From positions 1,302,001 to 1,366,000 of the forward strand of contig NZ_CP132911.1 of assembly GCF_036320485.1 (NCBI RefSeq): DNA of 64,000 nucleotides, given 5' to 3'. Origin of the DNA: Dyella sp. A6 (GTDB lineage: Bacteria; Pseudomonadota; Gammaproteobacteria; Xanthomonadales; Rhodanobacteraceae). Below, one piece after another: positions 42,960 through 47,365 of this stretch; within the stretch, counting starts at the first letter, position 1; the number at the start of each line of letters is the position of its first letter. A program made the translations under genes and the position numbers. The notes under the pieces were generated by a model. That model did not search any database. It was given only the letters and a program-made list of their open reading frames with translations, and was not told the origin of the DNA.

Positions 42960-43229
42960 ATGCATGAACTGCTCGCCCGGGCCACGCATGGTGTCGACCT
43001 GACGGCGCCCGGCGCGTTCTGGCATGTGTTCTTCAACCTGCTGAACATGGTGCCGTGGACGGCCATGTTCTGGTGGAACGTGGTGTTCGTGATCGTGGGC
43101 GCCGTGCTCGGCTGGTGGCGCGGCCGGGTGGCCGAAGGCGTGGCCTGGGCCTTGTTGCTGGGGCCGATCGGCTGGCTGATCGTGCTTCTGCGCAAACCCC
43201 GCGCAACGCCGCCTCCGCTGCCGCGCTGA
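42960..43229 (+). CDS. Small membrane protein, 89 aa
   Basis: A protein of 89 residues with two hydrophobic segments, NMVPWTAMFWWNVVFVIVGA at about 29-48 and GVAWALLLGPIGWLIVLL at about 60-77. A basic loop WWRGRVAEG lies between them and a Pro-rich tail follows. It is 25 bp after gltX and 97 bp before the zur-like gene. Family not recognised. Confidence 0.7.
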   Translation: MHELLARATHGVDLTAPGAFWHVFFNLLNMVPWTAMFWWNVVFVIVGAVLGWWRGRVAEGVAWALLLGPIGWLIVLLRKPRATPPPLPR

Positions 43230-43325
43230 GCCAGCGGTTCCCGGGCCGGCTGCACCGCGGCTTGCCTTTCGCTGCCACTGGCCTCACCTTACATGGGGCG
43301 CAGGGGGCTTTATGAGGGGAATTTC

Positions 43326-43814
43326 TTGAGCAGCGCTACCGACAAATCGCCGACCCATCACCACCACCATCACGATACGCCCAAGGCGCTCGTCGAGGCG
43401 GTGGAGCAGGCCAGTGAAGAACGTGGCCTGCGTCTGACGCCCCTGCGCAAGGAAGTGCTGGAACTGGTCACCACCGCGGGCAAGCCGGTCAAGGCTTACG
43501 ACCTGCTCGACCTGCTGCGCGAAAAGCACGGCAATGCGGCGCCGCCCACGGTGTACCGCGCGCTGGACTTCCTGCTGGAGAATGGCTTCATCCACAAGCT
43601 GGAGTCGATCAACGCCTTTGTCTCCTGTCAGCATCCGGCCGAGGCGCACCAGGTGCCGTTCCTGATCTGCGACCGTTGTTCCAGCGCCCAGGAGGTCTGC
43701 GATCCGCGCGTGGCCGAGCTGATCGAGGCGCAGGCCAAGGCGTTCGGCTTCCGTCCGCAGGCGCAGACCCTGGAAGTGCACGGCATCTGCCGCAACTGCC
43801 GTCGCGCCAGCTGA
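43326..43814 (+). CDS. zur: Fur-family zinc regulator (Zur-like) with a natural His6 stretch
   Basis: Metal-dependent repressor of 162 residues. The TTG at 43326 is chosen because GAGGGGA lies 6 nt upstream; an ATG 33 bp earlier is possible. Residues 11-16 are six histidines. The helix-turn-helix region is PTVYRALDFLLENGFIH. Two CxxC pairs, CDRC and CRNC, form the structural zinc site, and HPAEAHQ supplies regulatory ligands. It converges with the ZIP gene 17 bp away. Zinc is inferred from the neighbours, a ZIP importer and Zur-like boxes. Confidence 0.9.
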   Translation: MSSATDKSPTHHHHHHDTPKALVEAVEQASEERGLRLTPLRKEVLELVTTAGKPVKAYDLLDLLREKHGNAAPPTVYRALDFLLENGFIHKLESINAFVSCQHPAEAHQVPFLICDRCSSAQEVCDPRVAELIEAQAKAFGFRPQAQTLEVHGICRNCRRAS

Positions 43815-43830
43815 AGCCGGCCCTTGCCGG

Positions 43831-44562
43831 TCAGTGGATCGGCAGCAGCGTCGCCAGCCACATGAAGCCCAGTCCGCCCAGTACGCCCAGCATCGGCGTG
43901 TAGCGGCGGCCTTCATCGAGGCGGGTCCATAGTGCCGGCAACAGGTCGCCGCAGACCAGGTAGAGGGTCGCTCCGGCGACCACCGCCAGCATGCCTGCGA
44001 CCGTTGCCGGATCGTGCCCGAGCAACACGACCCCCATGGCCGCGGCCGGCACCAGCGCACCGGCGGCCATGCTCCATGCCACGGCCCGTCGTGGTGATTG
44101 TCCACCGGAGATCAGCACCGCGGCATGGCCCACTTCGCGCGGCAGTTCATGTCCGGCGATGGCCAGCGCGACCAGCACGCCCAGGGTGTCGCCGACCGTG
44201 AAGGCCGCGCCGATGACCACGCCGTCGGCGATGTGATGAAGGATGTCGCCGACCAGGTCCATGCGCGCGAACGGTGCCGTGCTGGCGTGGGCGAATGCGC
44301 GCACGATGCCCTCGGTCACCATGAAGACCAGCATGCCAACCGCCAGCAGCGGCCCGGTTCCGGCGGCATCGAGTCCGTGTGCGGCGGCTTCGGGCAGCAG
44401 GTGCAGCAGCGCATCGCCCAGGAGCAGCCCCGCGGCCATGGCCTGCAGCCAGGGCAGCCATTGCAGCAGCTGTTGAGGCTTGAACCACAGCAACGTGGTC
44501 GAGCTGGAGGCGATCAGCGCAACTGCCGTACTGACAAACAGGGTAAGCAGGACAGAATGCAT
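43831..44562 (-). CDS. ZIP-family zinc transporter
   Basis: A 243-residue inner-membrane metal importer with about eight helices. Transport-site motifs are HHIADGVVIGAA in helix 4 and GHELPREVG in helix 5, variants of HNFPEG and HEIPHE. A variable loop lies between helices 3 and 4. A Zur-box-like site lies 38 bp upstream of its start, so zinc repression is likely. It converges with the regulator gene. Other divalent metals cannot be excluded. Confidence 0.88.
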   Translation of the reverse strand: MHSVLLTLFVSTAVALIASSSTTLLWFKPQQLLQWLPWLQAMAAGLLLGDALLHLLPEAAAHGLDAAGTGPLLAVGMLVFMVTEGIVRAFAHASTAPFARMDLVGDILHHIADGVVIGAAFTVGDTLGVLVALAIAGHELPREVGHAAVLISGGQSPRRAVAWSMAAGALVPAAAMGVVLLGHDPATVAGMLAVVAGATLYLVCGDLLPALWTRLDEGRRYTPMLGVLGGLGFMWLATLLPIH

Positions 44563-44599
44563 CGACTTGGTAAGCGTGTAGGCTTGTGCGGGACTTGGT

Positions 44600-44614
44600 T
44601 GTTACATTATAACA
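44600..44614. promoter_or_regulatory. Zur-box-like operator between the ZIP and M23 genes
   Basis: TGTTACATTATAACA is an imperfect 7-1-7 palindrome matching the Zur core TGTTATA-N-TATAACA with one C/T change. It lies 37 bp before the ZIP ATG (minus) and 65 bp before the M23 peptidase ATG (plus), so it can control both divergently. Confidence 0.75.
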
Positions 44615-44679
44615 TGTTGATGATCGAAAGCGGCGTAGGCGTGCAGCACATGTCTTCGCGGCCAGTTCTCGGAGATGGC

Positions 44680-45822
44680 ATGAAGTCTGTGCAATGGGTG
44701 GGGGCCGTGGCGCTGGCCATGGTGATGGGTGGGCAGGTACATGCGGCACCGGTTCATGTGACGACCACGGCGGTGATGCATCCAGTCAGGCATACAGCCT
44801 GTAGGGAACACCGGGTCACGGTCGCTGAGGGCGACAGCGCCTACACGATGCTGCGCAAGTCCGGCATCGACGCGAACGACGCCATGCAGTGGCTCGCGCC
44901 ATCGCGCCGTGGCAGAGCCCTGCGCGACCTGCGTGCCGGCGACGTACTGACCTTCTGCACGACCGACGGCGGGCATCGCGGGCTGCGACTCGCGGCGCTG
45001 GGCGTGACGCGCGGCCACATGCGCTTCCGTCCGCGTTTGCTGCCCGGCCCGACCAAGGACACCGTGCGCGAAGCGATGGTGGTGCACTCGACGCTGGAGC
45101 GGGCGTTGCGCGAGCGTCGGGTGCCCTGGCACCTGATCGACGCGGTGCATGCCTATCTGCGCGATGATCCCGATTTGCCGGCGCACCTGCCTCGCGGTAC
45201 CCGGGTCGTGGCGACGTTCTCCGGCGATCCCGTGCGCTACGGGGCCCGGCTGCTATGCCTCGATGTCGAGCTGCATGGCCGGCATCACCGGCTTTTTCAT
45301 TACGTGGATGCGCGTGGCCGGCAGTATGTGCTCGGGGATCATGGGCATGGCGTGCGCATCCTGGCGATGCGGAAGCCGCTGCGGCATGCGCGGATTTCCT
45401 CGGGCTGGGGTTGGCGTATCAACCCGGTGCTGAAGCGGCCCGAGTTCCACAAGGGCATCGACTATGCCGCGCCGATGGGTACGCCGATCAGGGCTGCGCT
45501 GGCCGGCGTCGTCGAGATCGCAGCCTGGCACGGCAATTACGGCCGCATGGTCGATGTGCATGCGGCCAACGGCGTCGACAACCGCTATGGGCACATGTCG
45601 CGTTTCGCCGTGGGCATCCATCCGGGCGCCCACGTGCGTGCAGGGCAGGTCATCGGCTATGTGGGCGAGACCGGTCTGGCGACAGGCCCGCACCTGTATT
45701 TCGAACTGTGGGAGCGGCACCGTCGCGTCGACCCGCTGCTGCGCGAGCCGGTGACGACCGCCCAGTTGGATGGCCGGGCGCGGCAACGCTTCTCCGCTTT
45801 CATCCGGCATCTGGATGCCTGA
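44680..45822 (+). CDS. M23-family peptidoglycan endopeptidase (OapA/MepM-like), Zur-box linked
   Basis: Exported protein of 380 residues. The start at 44680 is supported by GGAG and a signal peptide ending in VHAAP. The N-terminal LysM/OapA-like half contains RVTVAEGDSAYTMLRKSG. The C-terminal M23 domain has HKGIDYAAPMGTP with zinc ligands His257 and Asp261, and YGHMS with His305. The last motif reads GPHLYFELW instead of GPHLHFE. So the second His of HxH, normally a zinc ligand, is Tyr340. It likely cuts cross-links in peptidoglycan unless this change disables it. A Zur-box-like site lies 65 bp upstream. Confidence 0.85.
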   Translation: MKSVQWVGAVALAMVMGGQVHAAPVHVTTTAVMHPVRHTACREHRVTVAEGDSAYTMLRKSGIDANDAMQWLAPSRRGRALRDLRAGDVLTFCTTDGGHRGLRLAALGVTRGHMRFRPRLLPGPTKDTVREAMVVHSTLERALRERRVPWHLIDAVHAYLRDDPDLPAHLPRGTRVVATFSGDPVRYGARLLCLDVELHGRHHRLFHYVDARGRQYVLGDHGHGVRILAMRKPLRHARISSGWGWRINPVLKRPEFHKGIDYAAPMGTPIRAALAGVVEIAAWHGNYGRMVDVHAANGVDNRYGHMSRFAVGIHPGAHVRAGQVIGYVGETGLATGPHLYFELWERHRRVDPLLREPVTTAQLDGRARQRFSAFIRHLDA

Positions 45823-45865
45823 GCTGCGAGATTCCGCGGGCGGGATTGGCGGCAACTTCACGCCG

Positions 45866-45880
45866 TGTTATAAAATAACA
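45866..45880. promoter_or_regulatory. Zur-box-like operator before the MerC gene
   Basis: TGTTATAAAATAACA is palindromic except for one pair and matches the Zur core closely. It lies 30 bp before the MerC-gene ATG and 43 bp after the M23 stop, so it would govern the MerC gene separately. Confidence 0.75.
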
Positions 45881-45910
45881 TTCTGCGATTTCACCAGCGG
45901 CCCTCCTGCC

Positions 45911-46339
45911 ATGGCAAAAAGTTCTTCAGACCAGAACGGTGTCTGGCATCTCGCCGACCGCCTTGGGGCGATGGCTTCGTTCCTTTGCGCCATTCATTGC
46001 GCGGTGCTGCCGTTCGTACTGACCCTGCTGCCCCTGCTGGGCCTCGGCTTCCTGGCTGAGCACGGCTTCGAGCGTGGCTTCGTGCTGTTTGCCTGCCTGC
46101 TGGCCCTGACCAGTCTGCTCGGTGGCTTCCGTCGTCATCGCCGCCGGCTTCCGTTGAGCCTGGCCGTGCCGGGCCTGGCCCTGCTCGGGCTAGGCGTCAC
46201 GCTGGCCGTGGACATCTCGATCGTGCTGCACAGCGTGATGGTGACCTGCGGCGGGTTGCTGGTGGCCTCGGCGCATTTCGTGAACCTCAAGCTTGACCGT
46301 CACTTCTGCCGTGTGCACCGCGTGCAGCACGCGCATTGA
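45911..46339 (+). CDS. MerC-domain membrane protein
   Basis: A 142-residue inner-membrane protein with four hydrophobic helices. Helix 1 contains a Cys pair, CAIHC (Cys26, Cys30), as in mercury transporter MerC. The C-terminal tail is rich in His and ends RVHRVQHAH. Start MAKSSSDQ at 45911; the longer frame upstream is not coding. A Zur-box-like site precedes it, so it probably handles zinc or its replacement rather than mercury. No other mer genes are near. Confidence 0.82.
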   Translation: MAKSSSDQNGVWHLADRLGAMASFLCAIHCAVLPFVLTLLPLLGLGFLAEHGFERGFVLFACLLALTSLLGGFRRHRRRLPLSLAVPGLALLGLGVTLAVDISIVLHSVMVTCGGLLVASAHFVNLKLDRHFCRVHRVQHAH

Positions 46340-46393
46340 ACGCCTGATGCGCCGTGATTGTGTAACGAGGCCTCTGCTTTCTAGCATCGTTGC

Positions 46394-47365
46394 ATGAGTC
46401 ATACGCACGCCCACGCCAGCACGCCCCATCTGCACGATCACGCGCACGGACATGGCCACGACCATGCCCATGGCACACACGGTCGCGAGGGCAAACTGCT
46501 GCTGGCTTTTGTCCTGACTCTGGCGATGCTCGCCGCCGAGGCGGTGGGCGGATGGTGGTCGGGCTCGCTGGCGCTGCTGGCCGATGCCGGACACATGTTG
46601 GTGGACGCGATGGCCCTGCTGCTGGCCCTGCTGGCGGTGCGCATGGCGAAGCGTCCAGCCGATGCACGGCGAAGCTATGGCTATGGGCGGATGGAGGTGC
46701 TGGCTGGCTTCGTCAATGCGCTGGCCCAGTTCGTGCTGGTCGGCTTCATTGTCTGGGAAGCGCTCGACCGTCTGCTTCACCTGGGCCGCATCCATATCCT
46801 GTCGGGCGTGATGCTGCTGGTGGCGATGGTGGGCCTGCTGATCAACCTGCTGGTGCTGCGGCTTCTGCACGGCCATGCGCACGATGACGTGAACATGGGT
46901 GCTGCCAGCCTGCACGTGCTGGGCGACCTGTTCGGGTCTTTCGGCGCGGTGCTGGCGGCGGCGGCGGTGCGCTGGCTGGGCTGGAACTGGGCCGATCCGG
47001 CGCTTTCGGTGCTGGTCTCGCTGTTGATTCTGGCGGGTGCGTGGCGACTGCTGCGGCGCTCCTCGCACATCCTGCTGGAGGGGGCGCCGGAAGGCGTCGA
47101 TCCCGACGAGGTGACCGAGGTGTTGCGGCATGCCGACCCTTCGATCAGCGATGTGCATCACCTGCATGTCTGGCAGCTGGCCTCGGGTTCGCGCATGGCT
47201 ACGCTGCATCTCGAGCTGCACGATTCATCGTCGAGCGTGACGGCCATGCACGCGGTGCGGCGTGAGCTGCGCGACCGCTTCGGCATCCATCACGTGACCG
47301 TGCAGGTCGATCCGGCCGGCTGTCCCGATGGCGTTTCGGGCTGTGGCGATCACGTGCATCACTGA
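46394..47365 (+). CDS. CDF-family cation exporter with His-rich N-terminus
   Basis: A 323-residue cation diffusion facilitator of the ZitB/DmeF type, a proton-coupled exporter of zinc, cobalt or cadmium. It has an N-terminal His-rich tail (HDHAHGHGHDHAHGTHG) and six membrane helices. Metal-site motifs are DAGHMLVD in helix 2 and HVLGD in helix 5. The C-terminal cytoplasmic domain has VHHLHVWQLASG. It follows the MerC gene by 54 bp and balances the ZIP importer nearby. The metal is inferred. Confidence 0.9.
   Translation: MSHTHAHASTPHLHDHAHGHGHDHAHGTHGREGKLLLAFVLTLAMLAAEAVGGWWSGSLALLADAGHMLVDAMALLLALLAVRMAKRPADARRSYGYGRMEVLAGFVNALAQFVLVGFIVWEALDRLLHLGRIHILSGVMLLVAMVGLLINLLVLRLLHGHAHDDVNMGAASLHVLGDLFGSFGAVLAAAAVRWLGWNWADPALSVLVSLLILAGAWRLLRRSSHILLEGAPEGVDPDEVTEVLRHADPSISDVHHLHVWQLASGSRMATLHLELHDSSSSVTAMHAVRRELRDRFGIHHVTVQVDPAGCPDGVSGCGDHVHH

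Follow-up and report, generated by a model that had tools for sequence, protein, structure and literature searches.

The locus and its palindromic sites

The window analysed here is a 64,000-nucleotide stretch of Dyella sp. A6 (Rhodanobacteraceae; contig NZ_CP132911.1, positions 1,302,001 to 1,366,000), whose genome is a single contig of 3,716,880 bp, and the subject of this study is a run of genes within it for a Zur-like regulator, a ZIP-family transporter, an M23 endopeptidase, a MerC-domain protein, and a cation diffusion facilitator (CDF) exporter, together with two Zur-box-like sites and a promoter-like element (Table 1). The MerC, M23, ZIP, and Fur-family genes all scored above their own Pfam cut-offs in a scan of the window, as did the cation-efflux domain of the CDF protein. 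The ZIP protein reached 66.8 bits against PF02535 (cut-off 35.1) and did not reach the NCBIfam ZupT equivalog (35.6 bits, cut-off 252). We consider it probable that these genes form an island for zinc homeostasis under the control of its own Zur, a reading that is well supported by comparison with related genomes.

Table 1. Features of the island and its upstream neighbour, in window positions
Feature	Position	Strand	Remarks
Small hypothetical membrane protein between gltX and zur	42960..43229	+	No Pfam/NCBIfam family
Zur-like regulator, Fur family	43293..43814	+	PF01475; alternative TTG start 43326
ZIP-family zinc transporter, putative importer	43831..44562	-	PF02535; convergent with regulator gene
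Zur-box-like site 1 (box 1), TGTTACATTATAACA	44600..44614	.	Between divergent ZIP and M23 genes
M23 endopeptidase, signal-peptide-like start	44680..45822	+	PF01551, 105.5 bits, cut-off 28.7
Zur-box-like site 2 (box 2), TGTTATAAAATAACA	45866..45880	.	Before merC
MerC-domain protein	45911..46339	+	PF03203, longer frame 45770-46339: 92.7 bits, cut-off 27.6
Promoter-like element: GTGATTGTGTAAC (46354-46366), 14 bases, CTAGCAT (46381-46387)	46354..46387	+	Before CDF gene
CDF zinc exporter, ZitB-like	46394..47365	+	TIGR01297, 277.7 bits, cut-off 82.35

A sequence-only reading of this DNA had described two palindromes that fit the Zur core, one between divergent ZIP and M23 genes and the other before the MerC-domain gene, with a Zur-like gene convergent on the ZIP gene; the palindromes stand exactly where it put them, and the gene coordinates bear out the arrangement. 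The regulator start that it gave, a TTG at 43326, had to be moved to an ATG of the frame at 43293, and its cluster, in which the genes were placed correctly, ended too early at 46339, since the unit runs on into the CDF gene.

The ATG of the ZIP gene is 37 bp from box 1, and the ATG chosen for the M23 gene is 65 bp from it on the other side; the M23 frame has an additional ATG at 44614. For box 2 the distance to the MerC ATG is 30 bp, and this ATG, at 45911, is the first after the box in a frame that is open from 45770. By eye, box 2 overlaps a -10-like TATAAA (45869-45874) with a TTGGCG (45846-45851) 17 bp upstream; the -10-like site inside the box was not among the sites listed by a promoter scan. 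The 15-bp palindromic core of the boxes is the gammaproteobacterial Zur core. In the window, the pattern TGTTAYAWTATAACA at up to three mismatches gave four matches, counting both strands, at these two places only, whereas none of 100 shuffled windows gave four (mean 0.13 matches). Genome-wide, the two boxes were the only sites within one mismatch of TGTTANANTATAACA, and likewise of TGTTATNNNATAACA. At exactly two mismatches the latter pattern had 11 further sites in the genome, against nine sites in all for the reversed control, and these weaker sites need other evidence because their number is at background level.

Conservation in Rhodanobacteraceae

The comparison set comprised 147 genomes of Rhodanobacteraceae, Dyella sp. 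A6 included, with Rhodanobacter, Dyella, Luteibacter, Frateuria, Dokdonella, and Tahibacter among the named relatives. A MerC homologue was present in 132 of these genomes, our own included, and 130 merC loci were read, a set that holds the window's own locus and the broken merC of genome G077 and leaves outside it the weak matches of G114 and G142. A box with at most two mismatches stood within 450 bp upstream of merC in 125/130 loci (reversed pattern: 10/130), the best box having 0, 1, 2, 3, and 6 mismatches in 12, 78, 35, 3, and 2 loci, respectively; the two loci with six mismatches (G070 and G055) have a perfect box at a greater distance, in front of a TonB-receptor gene leading into merC. 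The zur gene was seen upstream of merC in 105/130 loci, a count to be read with the fact that 29 of the 130 were read for only 1.5 kb on either side. In 34 loci zur lies more than 2.4 kb from merC, and the intervening gene was a TonB receptor in all seven of these that were tested, divergent from merC in five and leading into it in two. A CDF gene then follows merC in 122 of the 130 loci. The pattern TGTTAYANTRTAACA occurred at up to one mismatch in 112/147 genomes, compared with 11/147 for its reversal. Among the 80 loci of named relatives, which overlap the 147-genome set and are not independent of it, 79 had the box at two mismatches or fewer and 72 had the CDF element after merC.

ZIP homologues were found in 10 of the 147 genomes, our own included (E-value 1e-12), and seven of the nine relatives carry a box with up to two mismatches just upstream. 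The divergent ZIP-M23 arrangement with the box at the same place recurs in five of the other 146 genomes (G034, G077, G048, G012, and G006), where the box starts 22-81 bp before the M23 reading frame. In G034 the divergon directly follows zur, as it does in the window; this genome had no MerC match, and a two-mismatch box still stands between its TonB receptor and its CDF gene. The sequence-only reading had named boxes unconserved in relatives as the result that would speak against it, and the search, when run, gave the opposite for the merC box as well as for the ZIP box. Judged from this comparison, zur-[box]-merC-CDF is an old core and the ZIP gene, box, and M23 gene are a lineage-specific addition. 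The earlier proposal that a MerC protein belongs to the Zur-box set thus gains support from family conservation, with a shift in emphasis, in that merC is the old and widespread box-bearing gene.

We gave almost no weight to the possibility that the palindromes are chance AT-rich matches: they are short, and two-mismatch sites do occur at background frequency, but the boxes are unique in the genome at one mismatch, they stand before start codons, and the merC box is kept across nearly all of the family loci, which together rule this explanation out.

As a separate observation on the flank, 96 of the 105 family loci for which zur was recorded also have, upstream of it, the gene for the small membrane protein listed first in Table 1.

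The regulator and the genes behind the box

The regulator scored 51.1 bits against PF01475 (cut-off 23.1), and its best NCBIfam model, by a wide margin, was Zur (NF008646). Its top PDB match was 7dh7 (207 bits), titled 'Transcriptional regulator fur family', which we take to be X. campestris Zur, and its second was E. coli Zur, 4mtd (123.5 bits), in alignment with which a His, a Cys, a His, a Glu, and both CxxC pairs correspond; these residues are the zinc ligands of the E. coli protein. A second Fur-family gene at genome positions 1591456-1591815 scored 145.7 bits in a genome search with the Pfam model, compared with 49.8 bits for the regulator, and is probably Fur itself.

Some of the boxes away from merC were examined as well. 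In G064 they precede a ZrgA-family gene and a second ZIP gene; in G023, G046, and genus g25 they precede TonB receptors; and in G006 a one-mismatch box lies 33 bp before a second Zur-like gene (L111 3541-3990), itself at the PF01475 cut-off, which is followed by ZigA (683.9 bits, cut-off 600). The Zur reading is supported because the box pattern in relatives precedes genes of this kind, namely ZrgA-family, ZIP, TonB-receptor, and Zur-like plus ZigA genes. The same genes bear on whether the boxes could be Fur or other iron-type sites. TonB receptors among the targets would fit iron, as would the presence elsewhere in the genome of a Fur-family gene closer to the Fur model; the ZigA, ZrgA-family, and ZIP genes behind the box in relatives, the adjoining Zur-like gene, and the agreement with the Zur core argue the other way and make iron control very unlikely.

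Not all of the boxes examined fit zinc. A one-mismatch box lies 25 bp upstream of an S46 dipeptidyl peptidase gene in G006 (L094 9752-9766), an unusual neighbour for a zinc box; another lies 39 bp before the gene of an unassigned, exported-looking 461-aa protein in G140 (L105 4287-4301); and in genus g3 (G002, L109 4005; G028, L110 4159) a one-mismatch box, TGTTATACAGTAACA, stands on either strand at the start of a large membrane-protein gene.

Dyella sp. A6 itself has a TonB receptor (G000:C1:3432100-3434274) that is 76% identical to the box-bearing one of G023; its ATG is preceded, at a distance of 34 bp, by TGTTATAACATTGCA. A search for ZnuA, the control of which was positive in 11 of 14 reference genomes, gave no match in this genome.

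The MerC-domain protein

All 22 aligned family members of the MerC-domain protein keep C26, H29, and C30 (CAxHC), H51, E54, H76, H107, H122, and N125; in an alignment of 37 members all of these are invariant except H51, which is nearly so. Many members end in a His/Cys-rich C-terminal tail. The structural model has four long predicted helices at a mean predicted local distance difference test (pLDDT) score of 70, and neither a fold search with this model (no match at E ≤0.001) nor a PDB sequence search with the protein's profile returned a match. The protein did not reach the NCBIfam mercury MerC equivalog (19.4 bits, cut-off 140), and no relatives were found among 72,556 plasmid records (tblastn, E 0.01), so that mercury resistance is unsupported as its role. 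The genes scanned on either side of merC are of zinc type, and no search was aimed at merR, merA, merT, or merP. Compared with the Tn21-type MerC, the island protein shares the Pfam MerC domain, the four predicted helices, and the two Cys in the first helix, and differs in falling far under the mercury cut-off, in having no plasmid match, and in having zinc-type neighbours.

Outside the family, 27 of 369 genomes of the class had a MerC match at an E-value of 1e-10, a number that counts Dyella sp. A6 itself and its family relative G014. Of the 32 matches, 28 loci were read, the others being those of Dyella sp. A6 and G014, which were excluded, and two for which there was no locus. A Zur-like gene lies within 1.5 kb in 10 of these, and 18 of the 28 have either a box or a Zur-like neighbour. 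The linkage of merC with Zur is therefore wider than the family, with real gaps.

From this genomic context we infer that the MerC-domain protein is a zinc importer. It might instead be a zinc sensor, a chaperone, or a partner of the CDF pump, a role to which the CDF gene following merC in most family loci, the frequent His/Cys-rich tail, and the Zur-like regulator encoded close by would all be suited. The CDF gene, however, has an element of its own and persists without merC in G034 and G006, eight loci have no CDF match in reach of merC, the genes that carry the box in relatives belong mostly to uptake families, and in every one of the seven loci tested merC either diverges from a TonB receptor or comes after one; we therefore regard a role other than import as improbable.

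The CDF exporter and its element

The CDF protein did not reach the NCBIfam ZitB model (268.7 bits, cut-off 408). The near-invariant promoter-like element before its gene, which the sequence-only reading had not described, ends six bases before the ATG in the window. At up to two mismatches its 13-mer, GTGATTGTGTAAC, was present in 118 of the 122 CDF loci (97 exact, 16 with one mismatch, five with two) and missing from four. A longer pattern of the element was found at the same stringency in 23 of 25 sampled family genomes, once in 20 and twice in three, and in three of 16 other genomes of the order (reversed control: 4/41). In G311 and G158, which belong to another family of the order, the element ATTGTGTAAC (L391 403 and L392 363) stands before a small gene and a czcCBA-type operon. 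The small gene is DUF2946-like, under the cut-off, in G311 and unassigned in G158; the operons have an outer-membrane factor and a resistance-nodulation-division (RND) pump in both genomes and a membrane-fusion protein in G311. In G519 no efflux-type gene follows closely after the element. Standing as it does before CDF genes and czcCBA-type operons, the element therefore looks like a control site for metal export.

The CDF gene keeps its element in G034 and G006, where merC was not found, and the idea that CDF is an ordinary member of a merC operon is weakened both by this and by the occurrence of the element before czcCBA-type operons. The exporter is probably regulated apart from merC.

The M23 endopeptidase and its altered motif

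The island M23 protein has HKGID (His codon 45448-45450, Asp codon 45460-45462) and YGHM, and at the third motif it reads GPHLYFE, with Tyr (codon 45697-45699) replacing the second His of HxH, a substitution that the sequence-only reading had not noted. In LytM, the second of the two HxH histidines binds zinc, and the first is a catalytic residue. Of the HxxxD and HxH metal motifs of MepM/Shy-type enzymes, the island protein thus keeps the former, as HKGID, and has HLY at the latter. The same Tyr was present in all 19 of the closest family homologues examined (17 at an E-value of 1e-60 and two from ZIP-linked loci), whereas the genome's next-closest M23 protein (G000:C1:201961-202968) has HLH. 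Matches occurred in 262 genomes of the class, from which 29 loci were read; all 28 that could be parsed (every one except L343) have HLH, as do the five PDB chains listed. In a tree of 49 rows, a branch with full support separates the 20 HLY rows from the others. The protein lies below the NCBIfam equivalog cut-offs for MepM (100.8 against 341 bits), ShyA (86.3 against 700), and ShyC (84.2 against 700), no ShyB model being listed.

An upstream box occurs only in the six ZIP-linked genes of the 20 with HLY; the four HLY genes of genus g4 have no box nearby. A strict coupling of HLY with the box is thus ruled out. M23 homologues in general were also rejected as Zur targets, as the two-mismatch box appeared at one of the 29 class loci, which is the frequency of the reversed pattern (1/29). 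In genus g25 a box with up to two mismatches lies downstream of the M23 gene in six of ten loci, and the next gene was a TonB receptor in all four examined of those six.

These counts bear on whether box 1 controls ZIP alone, with M23 as a neighbour that is free of zinc control. The ZIP box stands in G064 and G135 with no M23 gene in the 1.5 kb covered on the corresponding side, and the majority of HLY genes without an upstream box would agree with such a neighbour; against it are the recurrence of the divergent arrangement in six genomes of three genera, the short distance from the box to the M23 frame in the five relatives, and, in genus g25, a box-bearing TonB-receptor gene that comes after M23. 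On balance we find this restriction of box 1 unlikely and favour control of both divergent genes.

Discussion

The arrangement of genes and boxes is consistent with the following scheme for an island controlled by its own Zur. With enough zinc, Zur-Zn on box 1 would shut off both divergent genes, those of the ZIP importer and the M23 enzyme, and Zur-Zn on box 2, over the -10-like sequence, would shut off merC. Under zinc shortage the boxes would be freed; the TonB receptor with the weak box elsewhere in the genome would take zinc across the outer membrane, the ZIP and MerC-domain proteins would take it across the inner membrane in a genome where ZnuA was not found, and the island M23 would help to cleave cross-links so that the wall can grow, a role also ascribed to ShyB in Vibrio cholerae. 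The separate element of the CDF gene probably serves the opposite state, zinc excess. In this scheme we infer Zur binding, the direction of regulation, the inward passage of zinc through MerC, and M23 activity under low zinc.

Several observations weigh against this reading. The regulator scored 144.3 bits against the NCBIfam Zur model, which is under the cut-off of 167, and the Zur-like neighbours of merC in the class, for all ten of which Zur was the best NCBIfam model, are likewise all under it. Two of the nine ZIP relatives (G089 and G010) have no box, and the ZIP-M23 arrangement is found in only 6/147 genomes, which belong to three genera. Fourteen of the 20 HLY M23 genes have no upstream box. 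In the class, a box with up to two mismatches lies in the 700 bp upstream of merC in 13/28 loci, compared with 5/28 for the reversed pattern, and both the box and a Zur-like neighbour are missing from 10/28 loci. The position of merC next to an exporter gene permits other roles for its product. Finally, the site before the TonB receptor of Dyella sp. A6 has two mismatches (three to the other pattern), a background score, and is placed among the targets by position alone.

Further known systems offer points of comparison. Vibrio cholerae ShyB is reportedly a Zur-controlled M23 endopeptidase, and the analogy drawn by the sequence-only reading holds in that the island M23 gene adjoins a Zur-type box and the further M23 gene of the genome has no close box (best site: four mismatches). 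It does not extend to the enzyme, as the island M23 is no MepM, ShyA, or ShyC equivalog, has HLY for HxH, and is divergent with a ZIP gene. In X. campestris, Zur is said to act as a repressor of genes for uptake and, at sites of a second type, as the activator of a gene for zinc efflux. The island regulator resembles it in that its closest solved structure is 7dh7, and differs in that here the efflux gene is a CDF gene in the zur island, with an element unlike the Zur box; by analogy, Zur may perhaps read the CDF element too. DksA2, RpmE2, and FolE2 are Zur-controlled zinc-free paralogues, which the island M23 resembles as a box-bearing gene with a changed metal motif, accompanied by a homologue that has the full motif and no box. 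It differs from them in that one residue is changed to Tyr and the site is not removed, and in that most HLY genes have no upstream box.

Taking these likenesses further, we tentatively suggest a composite that is possible though doubtful as a whole: the island M23 would be a zinc-sparing or metal-switched wall hydrolase, with a His-Asp-Tyr set that works with little zinc or with another metal, induced through Zur when the HLH homologue fails; MerC would be an inner-membrane zinc importer and a core Zur target in the family and, with gaps, in the class; and the CDF element would be a zinc-excess promoter site, perhaps read by the same Zur.

For the biology of the family, the Zur-type box before merC in 125/130 loci, with Zur-like neighbours in other families, gives the mercury-named MerC proteins a candidate function that can be put to the test, zinc uptake. 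With no more than two deviating letters in 118/122 loci, the CDF element is a ready bait for this group's regulator of zinc export. If the proposal for the box-bearing M23 with the altered motif is true, remodelling of the growing wall under zinc scarcity would involve an altered enzyme as well as an altered quantity of it.

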